From the NCBI GenBank assembly GCA_001803565.1, contig MHDQ01000059.1, positions 1-7,951 of the forward strand: a stretch of 7,951 nt of DNA, read 5' to 3'. The position numbers and the translations under genes were made by a program. Under the pieces are notes generated by a model, which saw nothing but the letters and a program-made list of their open reading frames with translations, ran no database searches and was not told the origin of the DNA. Source of the stretch: Nitrospinae bacterium RIFCSPLOWO2_12_FULL_45_22 (lineage in GTDB: Bacteria > 2-12-FULL-45-22). Below, piece by piece: positions 16 to 7,951 of the stretch (positions within the stretch are counted from its first letter, which is position 1; each line of letters starts with the position of its first letter).

Positions 16-798
16 TTATCTCATAAAACGATACTTAATAAGGGCCCAGACCGCCTCGGCTCCATCCCTGAAACGGATCTTTTTCCCTTCCAGGATATTG
101 CGTCCCTGATAAGAGATTGGGACCTCATATATCCGGTACCCCAGCTTGCTTATCTTGGCAGTAACCTCAGGGCAGAATTCAAAGCGGCGGCATTTAAGAT
201 CAATCTGATCAAAGATCTCTCGCCGAAAGACCTTGTAAGCTGTAGCCTCATCAGAGATCCTTGTACCATAGAGAAGGTTGGCCAAAAAGGTCAGGAATCT
301 ATTAGCAAGGTAATTTCGCACCTTCATCCCCTGGGGTCTGGTGAAAAACCGGGATCCATAGACTACATCAGACAGCCCTTCGATAATAGGATTTACCAGT
401 TGTGGATATTCTTCCGGGTTGTATTCTAAATCTCCATCCTGGATTAGGATGATATCTCCGTTGGCATATTTGAGACCAGTTCTTACCGCGATCCCTTTTC
501 CAAAGTTGAGCATTGATTTGTGGAGCTTAAATTGAAATCGCTGTGTCAGAGTTGTTAAAAGCTCCATTGAGCCATCGCTTGATCCATCATCAACAACGAT
601 GATCTCTTTTTGGACATTGGGAGCGATATCAACAGCAGCGACTCGTTCAAGGATTTGCTCGATGTGTTGGCGTTCATTGTAGATTGGAATTATGATCGAT
701 ATCAAGACAGGCGGTTTCAGAGGCTCAAGCTTGCTGTAACGTCTTATACGAGGCGAATCAGGTTGTGGGGATATTGAGAGATCCTTACCCTCCACCAT
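16..798 (-). CDS. Glycosyltransferase family 2, DPM1/GtrB-like (polyprenyl-phosphate sugar synthase type)
   Basis: 260 residues from the ATG at 798; the frame stays open to an ATG at 912 (38 more codons), but that extension has no ribosome site and an unconserved-looking sequence. The GT-A fold is clear: SIIIPIYNE (about 34-42), VVDDGSSDG (68-76), NFGKG (98-102) and the DGD metal/nucleotide motif (Asp121, Asp123) followed by LEYNPEEYP. YGSRFF and RFEFCPEVTAKI (about 205-216), then a basic KKIRFRDG near the end, are typical of the dolichol/polyprenyl-phosphate mannose or glucose synthase group. These enzymes move a sugar from a nucleotide donor to a polyprenyl phosphate on the cytoplasmic side, for later use outside by membrane glycosyltransferases. 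There is no C-terminal membrane domain of the GtrB type, so it is the soluble or peripheral form. The sugar is not identifiable. Confidence 0.93.
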   Translation of the reverse strand: MVEGKDLSISPQPDSPRIRRYSKLEPLKPPVLISIIIPIYNERQHIEQILERVAAVDIAPNVQKEIIVVDDGSSDGSMELLTTLTQRFQFKLHKSMLNFGKGIAVRTGLKYANGDIILIQDGDLEYNPEEYPQLVNPIIEGLSDVVYGSRFFTRPQGMKVRNYLANRFLTFLANLLYGTRISDEATAYKVFRREIFDQIDLKCRRFEFCPEVTAKISKLGYRIYEVPISYQGRNILEGKKIRFRDGAEAVWALIKYRFMR

Positions 799-806
799 TC
801 CCTTTT

Positions 807-810
807 CCCT
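807..810 (-). promoter_or_regulatory. Shine-Dalgarno deciding the GT2 start
   Basis: AGGG lies 8 bases before the ATG at 798, within the purine run AGGGAAAAGGGA. The alternative in-frame ATG at 912 is preceded by an AT-rich stretch with no such site. Confidence 0.55.
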
Positions 811-844
811 ATTATCTGGGCACCCTTCCTCTTCTGAACCCGAC

Positions 845-862
845 GGCCAGAAGTGGCTGGCC
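845..862 (-). other. Hairpin between radical SAM gene and GT2
   Basis: GGCCAG and CTGGCC form a perfect 6-bp GC-rich stem around a 6-base loop. No T-run follows, so it does not look like a terminator. It lies in the 150-base stretch between the radical SAM stop and the preferred GT2 start, and could affect RNA stability or GT2 translation. It would be inside the coding region if GT2 starts at 912. Confidence 0.3.
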
Positions 863-948
863 AATGGGAGACAGTATGCTCTTTTCAATTTTTGAAACCA
901 TAGGTAGAACATATTTTTGAGAGCACTGTAATGATCGGTTGTATTTTT

Positions 949-2367
949 TTAGCTCCTGTGCCCGGTTGCAAAAATTGCTTGAACTCCTCTGAACGCCATC
1001 CGGAGATCACGAAAGGACCGGAGCTTCTTGAGACGTTTCATAAGATAGGCGGGCCGGAAAAAGAAACGCCTATAGGCCTCTTTATAAGCGTGTTCTATCT
1101 CCCGGCTGCTTATAGTGGGGAGTTCCATAACATAATGATAGTAGTCATATAGGGACCAGTCCTCAGTGAGCAAATAATTATTTTCTTTGGCCCACTTATA
1201 CATCTCTGAGCCAGGATAGGGGGTTGTAATGTTAAACTGGACCATATCAGGATCAACATCAATCGCAAATTGTATTGTCTTTTCGATTGTCTCCCTGGTT
1301 TCCCCTGGATTTCCTATCATAAAAGAAAGGCGAACTTCTATCCCTGTCTCCTGGGTCATCCGGACCGCTTTACGGACTTGCTCAAGGTTGATGTTCTTTT
1401 TGATGGTAGCAAGGATTGTGGGATCGGCTGACTCTACTCCATAGCAGATAAGGTGGCAACCAGCCCGGGCCATCACGGAAAGGACTTCTGGATCGGCATA
1501 ATCTACCCGCGACATACAGGTCCAGGTTAGGTCAATATGACGATCGATCAGAAGACGGCAAAGTTCTACTACCCGTGTTTTACTGGCACAAAAGGTATCA
1601 TCATAGAAAGAGACCTCCCTGATTCCATAATTGCTCGTAAGGAGATCAATTTCACCGAGGATGTGCTCGGCGGAGCGGAATCTCAGATGCTTACCAAAAA
1701 CCTGGCTATTACAAAAGGTGCATCTGCCCGGACAGCCCCTGGTGGTCAAAAGACTAAGAGAGGGTTCTCGCCTGGCACTCCCCAGAGCAGTATGATACAG
1801 CTTTATAGGTAATAGATGATAAGCAGGGTAGGGGAGTTTATCAAGGTTATTTATACATACTTGTGGTCCTACATGAACCAGGTGCCCATCCTTTTTAAAG
1901 GATATCCCGTCAATAGTATTAGGGTCGTTCCCCCGAACAAGGGAGAGAAGGGGTTTTTCTCCCTCTCCCCGTATTACATAATCTACATTGAGATTGGAAA
2001 GGACCTCTTCTGGCATGATAGTAGCATGCACCCCTCCGATTACAACCAAAGCTGTACTCGTTTGTTTTACTACACGGGCCAGATCAAGGGCATTTTTTAT
2101 AAGGACCGATGTCGCCGTAATCCCGACAAATATCGGCTGGATCTGTTCAAGACGCTGGCAAAACTCCTGCTCCCGGAAATCTTCTGCCTGGTAATCTATA
2201 ATCGTAGCCTTTATTCCACTTTGCTCCAGATAAGCAGCAAGGATACCGAGTCCCAACGATGGTAAACAACTTGCGACCGACTTCCAGATATTTCCCTTCT
2301 TCTTCTCCCATGGAGGGTTAAGGAGTAGGATTGACCGGTCGACGGAGGATTTCTGCTGAATAGCCAT
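949..2367 (-). CDS. B12-binding-domain radical SAM protein
   Basis: 472 residues from the ATG at 2367 (488 if the ATG at 2415 is used). The N-terminal part is a cobalamin-binding Rossmann-like domain: ILLLNPPW at the start, PSLGLGILAAYL, GGVHAT (about 111-116), DYVIRGEGE (about 129-137). The radical SAM barrel follows, with the CX3CX2C cluster motif in RGCPGRCTFCN (Cys212, Cys216, Cys219 in this numbering), a YDDTF strand, YGVESADP (about 309-316) and the MIGNPGET loop. A helical tail (YKEAYRRFFFRPAYLMKRL) is usual in this large COG1032-type family. Members bind a 4Fe-4S cluster and S-adenosylmethionine, many also cobalamin, and do methylations, cyclisations or ring chemistry on very diverse substrates. 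The substrate here is unknown; between glycosyltransferases, a sugar or lipid-carrier modification is a reasonable inference. It heads the downstream transcription unit, followed by the GT2 gene after 150 bases. Confidence 0.92.
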   Translation of the reverse strand: MAIQQKSSVDRSILLLNPPWEKKKGNIWKSVASCLPSLGLGILAAYLEQSGIKATIIDYQAEDFREQEFCQRLEQIQPIFVGITATSVLIKNALDLARVVKQTSTALVVIGGVHATIMPEEVLSNLNVDYVIRGEGEKPLLSLVRGNDPNTIDGISFKKDGHLVHVGPQVCINNLDKLPYPAYHLLPIKLYHTALGSARREPSLSLLTTRGCPGRCTFCNSQVFGKHLRFRSAEHILGEIDLLTSNYGIREVSFYDDTFCASKTRVVELCRLLIDRHIDLTWTCMSRVDYADPEVLSVMARAGCHLICYGVESADPTILATIKKNINLEQVRKAVRMTQETGIEVRLSFMIGNPGETRETIEKTIQFAIDVDPDMVQFNITTPYPGSEMYKWAKENNYLLTEDWSLYDYYHYVMELPTISSREIEHAYKEAYRRFFFRPAYLMKRLKKLRSFRDLRMAFRGVQAIFATGHRS

Positions 2368-2375
2368 ACAATCAA

Positions 2376-2379
2376 TCCT
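2376..2379 (-). promoter_or_regulatory. Shine-Dalgarno favouring the ATG at 2367
   Basis: AGGA lies 8 bases before the ATG at 2367. The in-frame ATG at 2415 has only a GAGAG three bases ahead of it, too close for a normal site. Confidence 0.45.
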
Positions 2380-2451
2380 GAAGGGGTAAAGGTCACTTTT
2401 TGAATATTTTAGCATTGTCTCTCGATAGATTATCTAATAAAAAGTGAATAT

Positions 2452-2571: not shown

Positions 2572-5500
2572 TTATGGGGAGGTCCGGCAATTATCCAGAA
2601 AATATGTTAAGCCAACAATTAACCAGAAAGTGCCATATAATCGTTCATCGGCAAAATTCATATAAAACAGACTTAGGACAAAAAGGCTTAAATAGATAGA
2701 GACGAGGGCCAGGGCATGTCGGGACATGGGGTCTTGAGAAGGATTAAGGCATAGCTTCAATGAGGTTTTCAGGGGTAGCAAGTACCAGAGGGCAAATAAA
2801 AACATACCCGCTATACCGAAGCCTATGCCCATAGCCAGATAGTCATTATGGGGATGAGTATAAATCTGAGGGAGAAAGTCTTTGTATTTCTTATAATATT
2901 GAGGGTAGATGATCGGGAAGGTATAATAACCCACTCCCAATAATGGATGGTCTTTGATGATATCCCAGCATAAGGACCACATAAGTATCCGGTCATGACT
3001 GGTTTGGTCCTTCTCAGTAAAATACCTAAATAAATTGTCCAGCCAACCTTTGGTAAGCTCTTTCTGACTTAAACGGGCTATATCAGATTTATCTAGAGAA
3101 AGAAGGGGAGGGTTGATGACATTGTTTTTTGCGTCCAGCAAGAATATTTGATAGAGATTTTTAGGCATGTTAGAGATAGGGGAGTGGCCAACTTCTTCCC
3201 AGTTTCCCGTAATATCCAGAAAACTTTTAATATCTTGATTTTGATAAGGCAGCCCTGCCCCAACCACTACTCTATTTTTAATAATATCTTTCTTGTTGTC
3301 CTTCACTAGTTCTAGCACAACTTCCAATCTATTCTTTTTTAGGGTTAAATTTTTAGGTAAAGGTATCTTGTACCAGTCCCTTTCCGTTGGAAGTCCCCTC
3401 GGGAAGTTTTTCACTAATAGACCATTGGCTATGATATTAAGCTGATAATCCTTTCCCGGACCCCCCGCCAAATTTATAATCAAATCCTTATACCTATTCA
3501 GAGATCCTTTGTCTAATTGAAATACTTGCTTGATCTTATTCCCATTATTAAACAGCTCTGTAACAATAGGAATGGCATAAGTAGAATAGACACTGGAGGG
3601 TGAATCAAGGTAGATATGATAAGCACCTCCCTGGATTCCTTCCCTGATGGACAGGTCAAAATCTATCCATTTGTTCCCGTCAAACAGGAAGCTCTTAATA
3701 TTTTCTGCAGCAGGGTAGTCATTACCGTAAATTTTTACCCAATTTTCTCCTTGGTCCAGTTTGCCAAAGGCTTCTAGCTCTACATTGATAAAGTCCTTGC
3801 CTGTTAATAGGTCTTCTGGTATTTGTAGCTCATACCATCTCGGATGGACACTAATCTTATGCTCAAAAGTCTTAATAATTTTACCATCTACCCTTATCCG
3901 GAAACCATAATTATCCCCCATGGCCCCGCTCAATAACAGATAAAGTTTCCCTCTATCTCTTTCCTTGGGCAAGAGTATCTTCTGTAAGACTTTATGATGA
4001 GGGTCAGCCAGGAACATATCCCAGTTGGGTGAAAAACCTCCTGGTGAGACAGCCTTTGGTGAAGGAGTTTGACCACCCAAAAAAATATGATAAGCCCCAC
4101 GCTGGAGTCCCTCATCTGGTGAAAGGTCATAACTCTGCCAGCTTACTCCATCATAAAATAGACTCTTTACTGGGGCTCCTTCAACTAATCCTCCCCTGAG
4201 CATAAACCAATTCTCCCTGGCATCCAGCTTTCCGGTACCTTCCACTATGATCTCAATTTCTTTCTTGTTTTTACTGAGGGCGGCTGGGAGCCTTACTTTA
4301 TACCAATAAGGAACTTTATTCAAATGATTGTACTGGGCAATTACCTTGCCTTCAGCTAGTATCTTGAGGCCATAACTAGGCCCAGAGCCCCCAGCCAATT
4401 CCAGATACAAATCGGTTTCCTTTTCTTCTTCATCAATACTTATGATCTGTTTAATCTTGTATCTATTATCTGTTATTAAGCAATCCCATACCTTCACCTT
4501 CTCTTCTTGGCCCGGACAGCATCCCCTGTTTTGTCCCAAAAAGATATGATATACCCCGCTCTGGAGGCCTTTTTCTGGTGACAGGTCGTAATCTTGCCAA
4601 CTGCTCCCATCATAAAAGGCGCTCTTAATATCTGGTCCAGTTCCTGAGCTACCCTTCACTAAAAACCAGTTTTTATTAGAATCCAGCTGGCCGGTTCCTT
4701 CTAGGATAATTTTTAGCTTCTCTTTTCCTTCTAGAATCCCTTCAGGGACCCTAACTCGGTACCATTTAGGATTATTTTCTAAGGGGCCCAATTCCTCTAC
4801 TAGCTTACCTTCTACCGATACTCTTACTCTATAATTTTTCCCGGCCCCACCGGCTAGATTGAGATATATATCCTGCTTCTCTTTTATTCTTTCTTTCAAC
4901 GATATAATCTGCTCTATCTTGTATTTGTTGTTATTGACTACTATATCCCAGCTCTTATCACCTGCTAATAACCTCCCGGCTGTTTCTTTCTGGTCTTCCC
5001 CATTACCTTTAAAGAAAAGGTAATAAACTCCTCTCTGAACCCCGCTGCGTAAGGAGAGGTCCTGATCACTCCATTTGATTCCATCATAGAGATAACTTGT
5101 GACCCTTTCCTGGCTCGGGTTTTTCCCACCATATACTACTACATAGTTATTTTTTGCCTCCAACTTTCCGTTTACCTCTAAAGACGCAATGATTTCCTTT
5201 TTATTGCGGAACATCTGTTCCGATATAGCTACCTCATACCACCTGGGAGTGGGCTCTAACTCGTCTTTGAAAACCTTGACTATTTTACCGTCCACTTTCA
5301 GGATTAACTGATAAGCTTCACCTTTACCACCTGCAAGGTAGAGATACAACCTACCGTTAAGCGAGGTGGGAGAAGGACGGATAATTTGTCTTATTTTATG
5401 GTTTTCATTTATCAGGTAGCACTCCCAGCTATCATCTTGTTTAAGAGGTTGAGCGCGACTTATTTCTACGTGCTGGAATAGATAAAAGGTTAATAGATAA

Positions 5501-6303
5501 CTGACTGCCAGGAAAGGCAACGCAGAAAATATATATATTTGTAAAAATTTTCTTTTAGAAGAGAATGCCAGGGTTATCAGGGGAAATAAAAGGGCCAAGG
5601 CCAAATAACCAGCCCGGGAAGAGGTAAATAAAAAGATGATTAAAGTCAAAACAGTAAAAATTATATTTTCTGTCGAGAAAATTGTCCCCTTTTTATAAAC
5701 ATTATGGCTAAAGATTAAAGGGAAGATCATGAATATAAATGCTACTAGCACATTTGGTCCACCGCCCCGGAAAATACCATAGACCTCCCCCATACCCTCA
5801 TTAATAAAATAAGGGTATTCTCCAATATTCAATAAATTAAAGGCCTTTAATGATTGGGCCAGGGCTAGAATTAAAACTAAAAAATACATGGCTTTATAAA
5901 AATTCATGACCCGATAAAATTGATCTATTTTTTGGAGGTTGAATAGGACTGCAAAGACGATTAAGAAATGGAAGATAAACCATCGGAAACTTACAAAACT
6001 CTGCCGGGCAACATCTTCTGGAAATAAATCGGTCGAATGGTGCTGGGAAAAAAGACCCAGGATAATAAAACCTATCAGGGCAGGTAGTAGAAACTTCAGA
6101 TCAGGAGAGAGATTTTTCTCCCTTTGTCTCAGGAAGGAAAGGGTACCGGCCAGTAAAGTGCCAGTAATAATGCCGATATTAGAAGTTAAGTGACCAGCTT
6201 GAATGGGGAAGAGAATCCCTAAAAAGAGGAAAGATAACCCTATCTCAGTTTTCCAGAAGGTAATTAAAAATGATAAACCTGTTACTAAAAAAGTTAGCAG
6301 CAT
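2572..6303 (-). CDS. O-antigen ligase/polymerase-like membrane protein (Wzy/WaaL superfamily) with five tandem beta-type modules inserted in its outer loop
   Basis: 1243 residues, about three times the usual 400-450 for the family. The first 280 residues contain about ten hydrophobic segments, with family-like PNVLVAFIFMIFPLIF (183-198) and FTSSRAGYLALAL (226-238). The C-terminal 140 residues hold the rest of the Wzy_C-type signature: RILMW (1105-1109), HPLLGVGYYTF (1119-1129) and THPHNDYLAMG (1149-1159), whose Arg and His residues correspond to those usually conserved, then three more membrane segments. Known members transfer lipid-linked glycan to an acceptor, or polymerise repeat units, on the outer face of the cytoplasmic membrane. 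Between the halves, residues about 280-1100 form a hydrophilic insertion with five copies of a ~155-residue module (listed separately). There is no frameshift or stop, and both halves of the core look intact. The ATG at 6303 overlaps the GT4 stop and has no Shine-Dalgarno within 20 bases, so translation probably depends on coupling. The DNA is visibly more AT-rich than the two downstream genes. Ligase versus polymerase cannot be decided. Confidence 0.9.
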   Translation of the reverse strand: MLLTFLVTGLSFLITFWKTEIGLSFLFLGILFPIQAGHLTSNIGIITGTLLAGTLSFLRQREKNLSPDLKFLLPALIGFIILGLFSQHHSTDLFPEDVARQSFVSFRWFIFHFLIVFAVLFNLQKIDQFYRVMNFYKAMYFLVLILALAQSLKAFNLLNIGEYPYFINEGMGEVYGIFRGGGPNVLVAFIFMIFPLIFSHNVYKKGTIFSTENIIFTVLTLIIFLFTSSRAGYLALALLFPLITLAFSSKRKFLQIYIFSALPFLAVSYLLTFYLFQHVEISRAQPLKQDDSWECYLINENHKIRQIIRPSPTSLNGRLYLYLAGGKGEAYQLILKVDGKIVKVFKDELEPTPRWYEVAISEQMFRNKKEIIASLEVNGKLEAKNNYVVVYGGKNPSQERVTSYLYDGIKWSDQDLSLRSGVQRGVYYLFFKGNGEDQKETAGRLLAGDKSWDIVVNNNKYKIEQIISLKERIKEKQDIYLNLAGGAGKNYRVRVSVEGKLVEELGPLENNPKWYRVRVPEGILEGKEKLKIILEGTGQLDSNKNWFLVKGSSGTGPDIKSAFYDGSSWQDYDLSPEKGLQSGVYHIFLGQNRGCCPGQEEKVKVWDCLITDNRYKIKQIISIDEEEKETDLYLELAGGSGPSYGLKILAEGKVIAQYNHLNKVPYWYKVRLPAALSKNKKEIEIIVEGTGKLDARENWFMLRGGLVEGAPVKSLFYDGVSWQSYDLSPDEGLQRGAYHIFLGGQTPSPKAVSPGGFSPNWDMFLADPHHKVLQKILLPKERDRGKLYLLLSGAMGDNYGFRIRVDGKIIKTFEHKISVHPRWYELQIPEDLLTGKDFINVELEAFGKLDQGENWVKIYGNDYPAAENIKSFLFDGNKWIDFDLSIREGIQGGAYHIYLDSPSSVYSTYAIPIVTELFNNGNKIKQVFQLDKGSLNRYKDLIINLAGGPGKDYQLNIIANGLLVKNFPRGLPTERDWYKIPLPKNLTLKKNRLEVVLELVKDNKKDIIKNRVVVGAGLPYQNQDIKSFLDITGNWEEVGHSPISNMPKNLYQIFLLDAKNNVINPPLLSLDKSDIARLSQKELTKGWLDNLFRYFTEKDQTSHDRILMWSLCWDIIKDHPLLGVGYYTFPIIYPQYYKKYKDFLPQIYTHPHNDYLAMGIGFGIAGMFLFALWYLLPLKTSLKLCLNPSQDPMSRHALALVSIYLSLFVLSLFYMNFADERLYGTFWLIVGLTYFLDNCRTSP
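3136..3561 (-). repeat. Ligase insertion module R5, divergent (residues 915-1056)
   Basis: The last copy keeps NKIKQVF (922-928), NLAGGPG (944-950), NG (960-961), DWY (976-978), DIKSF (1024-1028), W1035 and YQIFLL (1051-1056). It has lost the leading Trp, the (F/Y)DG turn (replaced by LDITGNW), the DLS motif and the GLQxG motif. About 50 residues then lead to RILMW of the membrane core. It may be a structural cap that no longer shares the binding surface of R1-R4. Confidence 0.75.
3607..4023 (-). repeat. Ligase insertion module R4 (residues 761-899)
   Basis: Landmarks: W761, HKVLQKI (770-776), LLSGAMG (790-796; the LAGG motif is altered to LSGA), DGK (806-808), RWY (822-824), FGKLD (846-850), NW (854-855), LFDG (873-876), W879, FDLS (882-885), GIQGGAYHIYL (889-899). 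A Pro/Ser/Gly-rich linker (TPSPKAVSPGG) precedes it. Confidence 0.85.
4075..4488 (-). repeat. Ligase insertion module R3 (residues 606-743)
   Basis: Landmarks: W606, YKIKQII (615-621), ELAGGSG (635-641), EGK (651-653), YWY (666-668), EGTGKLD (688-694), NWF (698-700), FYDG (716-719), W722, YDLSP (725-729), GLQRGAYHIFLG (732-743). The linker before it holds a Cys pair (C595-C596), and C608 sits two residues after its first Trp; a disulfide outside the membrane is possible. Cysteines are otherwise rare in the array. Confidence 0.88.
4534..4953 (-). repeat. Ligase insertion module R2 (residues 451-590)
   Basis: Landmarks: W452, YKIEQII (461-467), NLAGGAG (482-488), EGK (498-500), KWY (513-515), EGTGQLD (535-541), NWF (545-547), FYDG (563-566), W569, YDLSP (572-576), GLQSGVYHIFLG (579-590). 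It is the closest relative of R3: over the last 32 residues (from IKS/VKS to FLG) 24 positions are identical by direct count. Confidence 0.88.
5008..5430 (-). repeat. Ligase insertion module R1 (residues 292-432)
   Basis: First copy, directly after the tenth membrane segment. Landmarks: W293, HKIRQII (302-308), LYLAGG (321-326), DGK (338-340), RWY (354-356), GKLEAKNNY (379-387), LYDG-x2-W (405-411), DLS (415-417), GVQRGVYYLF (421-430). The longest linker in the array (about 20 residues, GNGEDQKE...) separates it from R2. The mix of alternating hydrophobic strands, aromatic residues and 'xVxGKxV' turns suggests a beta-sandwich; the carbohydrate-binding role is inference. Confidence 0.85.
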
Positions 6304-7686: not shown

Positions 7687-7951
7687 TTATTCTATGCTAG
7701 AGGTAATATTGCTTGGAGTGGGTCTTTCCCGGTATATATCTACTTCGGTTAAGGCAACTTTGGCTCCTTCTATTGGCTGGAGGCATATTTTAACATACCG
7801 CGCTCTCGTATCAATCTTTCCTGAATAAAGGATAAACGAACCCTGGCTAATGAAAGGGTGTTTGGGAAAGCTATCGGCCAAATGATAATCTTGGCCTTCT
7901 TTACTTAAATAGATATCGGTTTTAGGAAAGACATAGTCAGGAAAATGATAA
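7687..7951 (-). CDS. C-terminal part of a protein ending in a discoidin/galactose-binding-like domain (5' end outside window)
   Basis: The reading frame enters at the window edge (first whole codon at 7950) and runs open for 87 codons to a TAA at 7689-7687. A TTG at 7881 could be taken for a start, but the frame is open and protein-like before it (FPDYVFPK, then TDIYLSKEGQDYH), so this is a 5'-truncated gene. The pattern is that of the last strands of an F5/8 type C (discoidin) or related galactose-binding-like beta-sandwich: a 'xVxVYxSxDGxxY' strand pair (TDIYLSKEGQDY), then ARYVKICLQPIEGA, then the closing VALTEVDIY strand. Such domains usually bind carbohydrate in secreted or surface proteins. 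The catalytic or other part of the protein is not visible. It is transcribed in the same direction as the glycosyltransferase that follows after 187 bases, and I see no T-tailed hairpin between them. The family assignment rests on pattern only. Confidence 0.75.
   Translation of the reverse strand, partial: YHFPDYVFPKTDIYLSKEGQDYHLADSFPKHPFISQGSFILYSGKIDTRARYVKICLQPIEGAKVALTEVDIYRERPTPSNITSSIE

Follow-up and report, generated by a model that had tools for sequence, protein, structure and literature searches.

Enzymes of the WaaL/Wzy_C family (CAZy GT121; solved ligase structure 7tpg) combine a transmembrane core with a large catalytic loop, which in WaaL and WadA is periplasmic (PMC9938171). 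Two arginines and a histidine of this family, R215, R288 and H338 in the WaaL of E. coli, are functionally important and are conserved in PglL (PMC3643930). The ligase WadA is bimodular; its additional domain, of family GT25, is cytoplasmic (PMC10920833, PMC9938171).

Carbohydrate-binding domains are known from membrane glycosyltransferases with other cores. The mycobacterial arabinosyltransferases EmbB, EmbC and AftD, the core of which is PMT/ArnT-like GT-C, use a lipid-linked sugar and carry periplasmic carbohydrate-binding β sandwiches, two of these modules (CBMs) being present in EmbB (PMC7341804). In EmbC and AftD, these sandwiches contact the acceptor; that of EmbC is an acceptor-binding CBM, in which substitution of tryptophans inhibits chain extension, with loss of activity (PMC3044687). 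The ribofuranosyltransferase ORF12 (GT136) of Citrobacter youngae has a single C-terminal periplasmic CBM, which binds its O-polysaccharide but, in the assay conditions used, was not needed for activity (PMC11127046). For the Bcs machine of E. coli, guidance of the chain has been proposed as the role of the stacked carbohydrate-binding modules of BcsB (PMC11470070); BcsB is a separate periplasmic subunit, placed where the glycan leaves a membrane synthase, and in BcsB these domains alternate with flavodoxin-like ones.

The window analysed here spans all 7951 bases of contig C59, from a 3.67-Mb genome (321 contigs, 85% complete), and encodes a protein of 1243 residues which shares with the WaaL/Wzy_C family the Wzy_C match, the R/R/H positions, the transmembrane core and a large, predicted periplasmic catalytic loop. 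It differs by about 800 extra residues between the two arginines, which six sister proteins of the same genome do not have; the additional domain of WadA is instead the cytoplasmic GT25 domain. The Wzy_C core also sets it apart from EmbB, EmbC and AftD, as do five modules in tandem inside one catalytic loop versus two CBMs in EmbB; with ORF12, which has a different core and a single C-terminal domain, it is compared by layout. No precedent for the five-module layout was found in literature searches or family libraries. The statement of the first-pass annotation that no ligase of such layout is known holds as far as the families and papers searched go, but it has to be qualified by the glycan-binding domains known on such enzymes (EmbC, EmbB, AftD, GT136 ORF12): the module family and the layout are new, whereas the enzyme core and the principle of a CBM on a membrane glycosyltransferase are known.

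Enzyme core and site of the insertion

The window has the following genes, given in the order in which the minus strand is read:

7950..7687, minus strand: fragment, the C-terminal 87 residues of a gene truncated by the contig end
6294..7526, minus strand: GT4-family glycosyltransferase (Pfam Glycos_transf_1, E 1.5e-35)
2572..6303, minus strand: Wzy_C/WaaL-type membrane enzyme of 1243 residues with an inserted five-module array (open reading frame, Wzy_C match, 7tpg profile match)
949..2415, minus strand: B12-binding radical SAM protein, the downstream neighbour (Pfam Radical_SAM and B12-binding)
16..912, minus strand: GT2-family glycosyltransferase resembling polyprenyl-phosphate sugar synthases (Pfam Glycos_transf_2, E 1.8e-30; NCBIfam AglJ 100 bits, under the cut-off of 325)

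The frame of the membrane enzyme is free of internal stops and its start is overlapped by 10 bases by the upstream GT4 gene. The Pfam match of the protein to Wzy_C (PF04932) totals 75 bits, for a cut-off of 31.7, and is split into two stretches, the better of which covers residues 1091–1171 (model 74–149); in the genome search the two halves appear separately, at 2791–3045 (model 74–149) and 5338–5658 (model 2–88) of the window, about 2.3 kb apart. Wzy_C is the only Pfam family matched by the core, with no match of the PMT/ArnT type, and NCBIfam TIGR03097 reaches only 32 bits on the protein (cut-off 188). A profile made of this protein and its six Wzy_C sister proteins matches the solved WaaL ligase 7tpg with an E value of 3.8e-11. 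The motifs SRAG (229), RILMW (1105), HPLLGVG (1119) and HPHNDYL (1150) are all located, and in the alignments R230 (SRAG), R1105 (RILMW) and H1152 (HPHND) pair with R191, R265 and H313 of 7tpg, the correspondence of which to the E. coli WaaL residues is based on the similar spacing of arginine to arginine and arginine to histidine (74/48 versus 73/50). As the respective values of the 1243-residue protein are 875/47, its extra length lies nearly all between the two arginines.

Judged by these sequence features, the catalytic core is intact, with the conserved R/R/H present, in agreement with the Wzy/WaaL-like core split by an insertion that the first-pass annotation had described; the enzyme is thus classified as a WaaL/Wzy_C-type GT-C glycosyltransferase, a putative ligase or polymerase. 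The genome encodes six further Wzy_C proteins, and the family searches gave the enzyme no specific assignment. Neither a relative of the full protein, in a whole-protein scan of genome contigs, nor an orthologue with a different module number was found.

The protein is divided as follows:

5467..6303, minus strand: N-terminal core part, residues 1–279 (hydropathy), with R230 of SRAG at 5614–5616
3055..5466, minus strand: insertion of about 800 residues (about 280–1083) in a loop predicted to be extracytoplasmic (sister-protein alignment; positive-inside loops)
2575..3054, minus strand: C-terminal core part, residues 1084–1243, with R1105 at 2989–2991, GVG (1123–1125), H1152 at 2848–2850 and the last transmembrane segments

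The distance between the first arginine and the glycine of GxG is 895 residues here versus 85–101 in the six sister proteins. The array starts about 12 residues past the last N-terminal transmembrane helix and stops about 25 residues ahead of the second conserved arginine; the first-pass coordinates of the insertion were correct to about 20 residues. Hydrophobic segments occupy residues 1–279 and 1154–1236, and the loops 61–65, 201–208, 249–253 and 1177–1194 are rich in lysine and arginine. Hydropathy and charge together put the insertion-bearing loop (278–1155) on the side opposite loops 249–253 and 1177–1194. From charge and family topology, the array is predicted to be periplasmic rather than cytoplasmic, outside the membrane as had been claimed, which is consistent with the large periplasmic loop of WaaL and WadA. 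In a survey of 145 genomes, 126 of which had Wzy_C matches, every span among the matches listed was at most 657 bases; this survey favours uninterrupted proteins, as a split enzyme would score low, and is thus no proof that the insertion is unique.

The modules, their predicted fold and their other carriers

The insertion consists of five repeats of about 155 residues each, as proposed by the first-pass annotation:

4963..5436, minus strand: module R1, residues 290–447 (repeat alignment; AlphaFold pLDDT 71.6, pTM 0.75)
4495..4965, minus strand: module R2, residues 447–603 (repeat alignment; AlphaFold pLDDT 83.4, pTM 0.81)
4030..4497, minus strand: module R3, residues 603–758 (repeat alignment; 48% identical to R2)
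3550..4026, minus strand: module R4, residues 760–918 (repeat alignment)
3058..3552, minus strand: module R5, residues 918–1082 (degenerate; nearest the C-terminal core half)

Pairwise identity is 25–48%, with R2 and R3 the closest pair, and in Smith-Waterman comparisons each of the ten pairs scores between 11.6 and 67.6 standard deviations above shuffled sequence, which excludes chance for the repeats. R5 is without the DLSxxxGxQxG motif; Gly, Tyr, Trp and Asn are invariant at four positions across the eight modules found (five here and those described below), and a conserved Trp-Tyr corresponds to W514 and Y515 in R2. Pfam, NCBIfam, PHROGs (nothing beyond chance) and PDB sequences yielded no family match for the modules, nor any family describing the insertion, and up to an E value of 1 no CBM family of Pfam, CBM6, CBM35 and CBM36 included, matched any of the eight.

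The AlphaFold models of R1 (built on five sequences) and R2 (on eight) are jelly-roll β sandwiches, so the modules are, by prediction, of the beta type that had been claimed. Searched against the PDB with Foldseek, both have carbohydrate-binding domain 1 of BcsB as the top match (E 2.7e-4 for R1, 2.8e-4 for R2). In VIA-align, residues 66–189 of 5eiy_B align with R1 at Z 9.9 (rmsd 3.4, 113 residues aligned) and with R2 at Z 9.2 (rmsd 3.7, 110 aligned), followed by CBM36, CBM6 and CBM35 at Z of about 7–8, a likeness which may be general; for the R2 model, two phage baseplate/fibre domains lie slightly above BcsB (Z 10.2–10.8). A Z of 8–11 on so common a fold as the β sandwich may reflect a shared arrangement only. 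Direct homology of the modules to BcsB is not supported, as the hhalign comparison of profiles gave a non-significant probability of 0.9%; the BcsB family profile (PF03170) had no Pfam match on the protein or its modules and none in the host genome. Together, the fold matches and the profile comparison support a carbohydrate-binding type of fold, but not a homologue of BcsB.

The same module recurs in two other places. On contig C11 of the host genome, a membrane protein of the PMT_2 (GT-C) type has a module at its C-terminal end, within which the contig stops; beside its gene, on the opposite strand, lies a small frame in which a single module follows a hydrophobic segment at the N-terminus. 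In the metagenome-assembled genome CP070758.1, deposited as Gemmatimonadota bacterium bin29 and the sole genome of its phylum in the searched set, another PMT_2 protein ends in one module. The two PMT_2 assignments are from Pfam, and the layout of both proteins resembles that of ORF12 with its C-terminal CBM. As these carriers are PMT_2 proteins and the window protein is of the Wzy_C type, all membrane-enzyme carriers found are glycosyltransferases.

Among 752 distinct genomes searched, two, the host and CP070758, have the module; its distribution is under-sampled, as the host phylum was represented by one other genome only and the larger phyla were picked blind. A four-row module alignment used as probe, which included a hand-made consensus, retrieved CP070758 only. 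Plasmids, phages and viral contigs gave no match to the module. In a fold search of BFVD, no entry reached an E value of 0.001, so a viral origin is not supported. For the single-module frame on C11 (L018:2511-3113), no ATG, GTG or TTG is listed upstream of the hydrophobic segment, the first listed start being the TTG at 2691; it either has an unusual start codon or is a decayed gene.

Proposed function of the array

In analogy to the systems above, the modules probably serve to bind the acceptor or the growing glycan, keeping the chain near the active site. On the outer side of the inner membrane, the enzyme would join or extend lipid-linked glycans. Its catalytic loop, predicted to be periplasmic, is enlarged by the tandem array of five modules of predicted jelly-roll fold, and the array is anchored to the membrane enzyme at both ends. 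By keeping the bound glycan close to the active site, the array would raise the local glycan concentration, and transfer might become more efficient or more processive. The predicted fold, with BcsB and CBM6/35/36 as neighbours, and the recurrence of the module on GT-C (PMT_2) enzymes, both in the host genome and in CP070758 of another phylum, speak for the glycan-binding array proposed in the first-pass annotation; the binding itself, its effect on catalysis and the glycan concerned are what we infer from them. Counterpoints are that the phage baseplate/fibre domains fit the fold equally well, that the profile comparison with the BcsB domain is not significant, and that GT136 could do without its CBM under the conditions of its assay. 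LpxC is encoded in the host genome, so an outer membrane with lipid A is probable and lipid A-core is a possible acceptor.

The modules might instead be docking or scaffold domains which recruit a protein partner, such as a flippase, a co-polymerase or an acceptor protein, and bind no glycan at all. Jelly-roll folds also mediate contacts between proteins, the best matches of fold include phage baseplate domains, and the separate single-module frame with its hydrophobic N-terminal segment adjoins the GT-C gene of C11. The remaining fold neighbours, however, are mostly carbohydrate-binding domains and the membrane-enzyme carriers are without exception glycosyltransferases, and docking in place of glycan binding appears unlikely.

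Quite unlikely, too, is that the array serves as a periplasmic track or ruler, in which stacked modules thread the polymer outward and their number sets chain length or processivity, one polypeptide taking the place of Wzz or of the BcsB crown. It would fit the stacking of modules in tandem within one chain and the rank of BcsB as first Foldseek match of both models; moreover, the ORF12 report mentions that CBM mutants of EmbC yield less and shorter arabinan (PMC11127046). Against it, R5 is degenerate, and the other carriers show one module (that of C11 being truncated), so module number is not fixed across carriers. If it were true, the module would be a new carbohydrate-binding family dedicated to membrane glycosyltransferases.

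Wall-binding modules often occur in tandem, and five of them could bridge some distance; still, the tether to the cell wall or S-layer that had also been suggested found nothing in its favour and is very improbable, as the array is fixed at both ends within the enzyme loop and has no free end, Pfam and NCBIfam give no wall-binding or SLH match, and the outer membrane that LpxC makes probable argues against it. Although the window is a whole contig of a metagenome assembly in many pieces, an artefact of assembly or binning, with the array misjoined into the ligase gene, can hardly be believed and a chimera is unlikely: a single frame runs unbroken through both junctions, the repeats are diverged, unlike a collapsed or expanded assembly repeat, third-position G+C shows no jump (0.41 in the insert versus 0.38 and 0.47 in the flanks), and homologous modules exist elsewhere in the same genome.

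It is poorly understood how Wzy/WaaL-type enzymes keep hold of long glycans and how they determine the end of the chain. With a putative glycan-binding array of its own within the catalytic loop, this enzyme provides a system in one protein, in which the number of modules can be altered and the length of the product read. An undescribed module family on glycosyltransferases of two phyla that use lipid-linked sugars, in turn, gives a lead towards carbohydrate-binding domains of a new periplasmic class.

Genes near the module-bearing enzymes

Near the GT-C gene of C11 lies a GT2 gene (L018:5114-5809) resembling polyprenyl-phosphate sugar synthases, as expected for a lipid-linked donor. A small membrane protein (L018:4733-5104) adjoins it, and the two look like a donor-supply unit for the module-bearing PMT_2 enzyme. 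In both clusters, genes for B12-binding radical SAM proteins adjoin the module-bearing glycosyltransferases (949–2415 in the window; L018:3281-4732 and 6861-8270), their products having HpnJ/BchE-like scores below the cut-off. The truncated product at 7687–7950 of the window (minus strand) is of beta-type appearance and has no family match; it may be another domain of the carbohydrate-binding type beside the cluster. Finally, another Wzy_C protein of the same genome (L020:13990-16059, minus strand), close to the end of which there are undetermined bases, carries at its C-terminus a different domain, about 130 residues long and unmatched in Pfam, so the Wzy_C enzymes of the host may often have additional outer domains.
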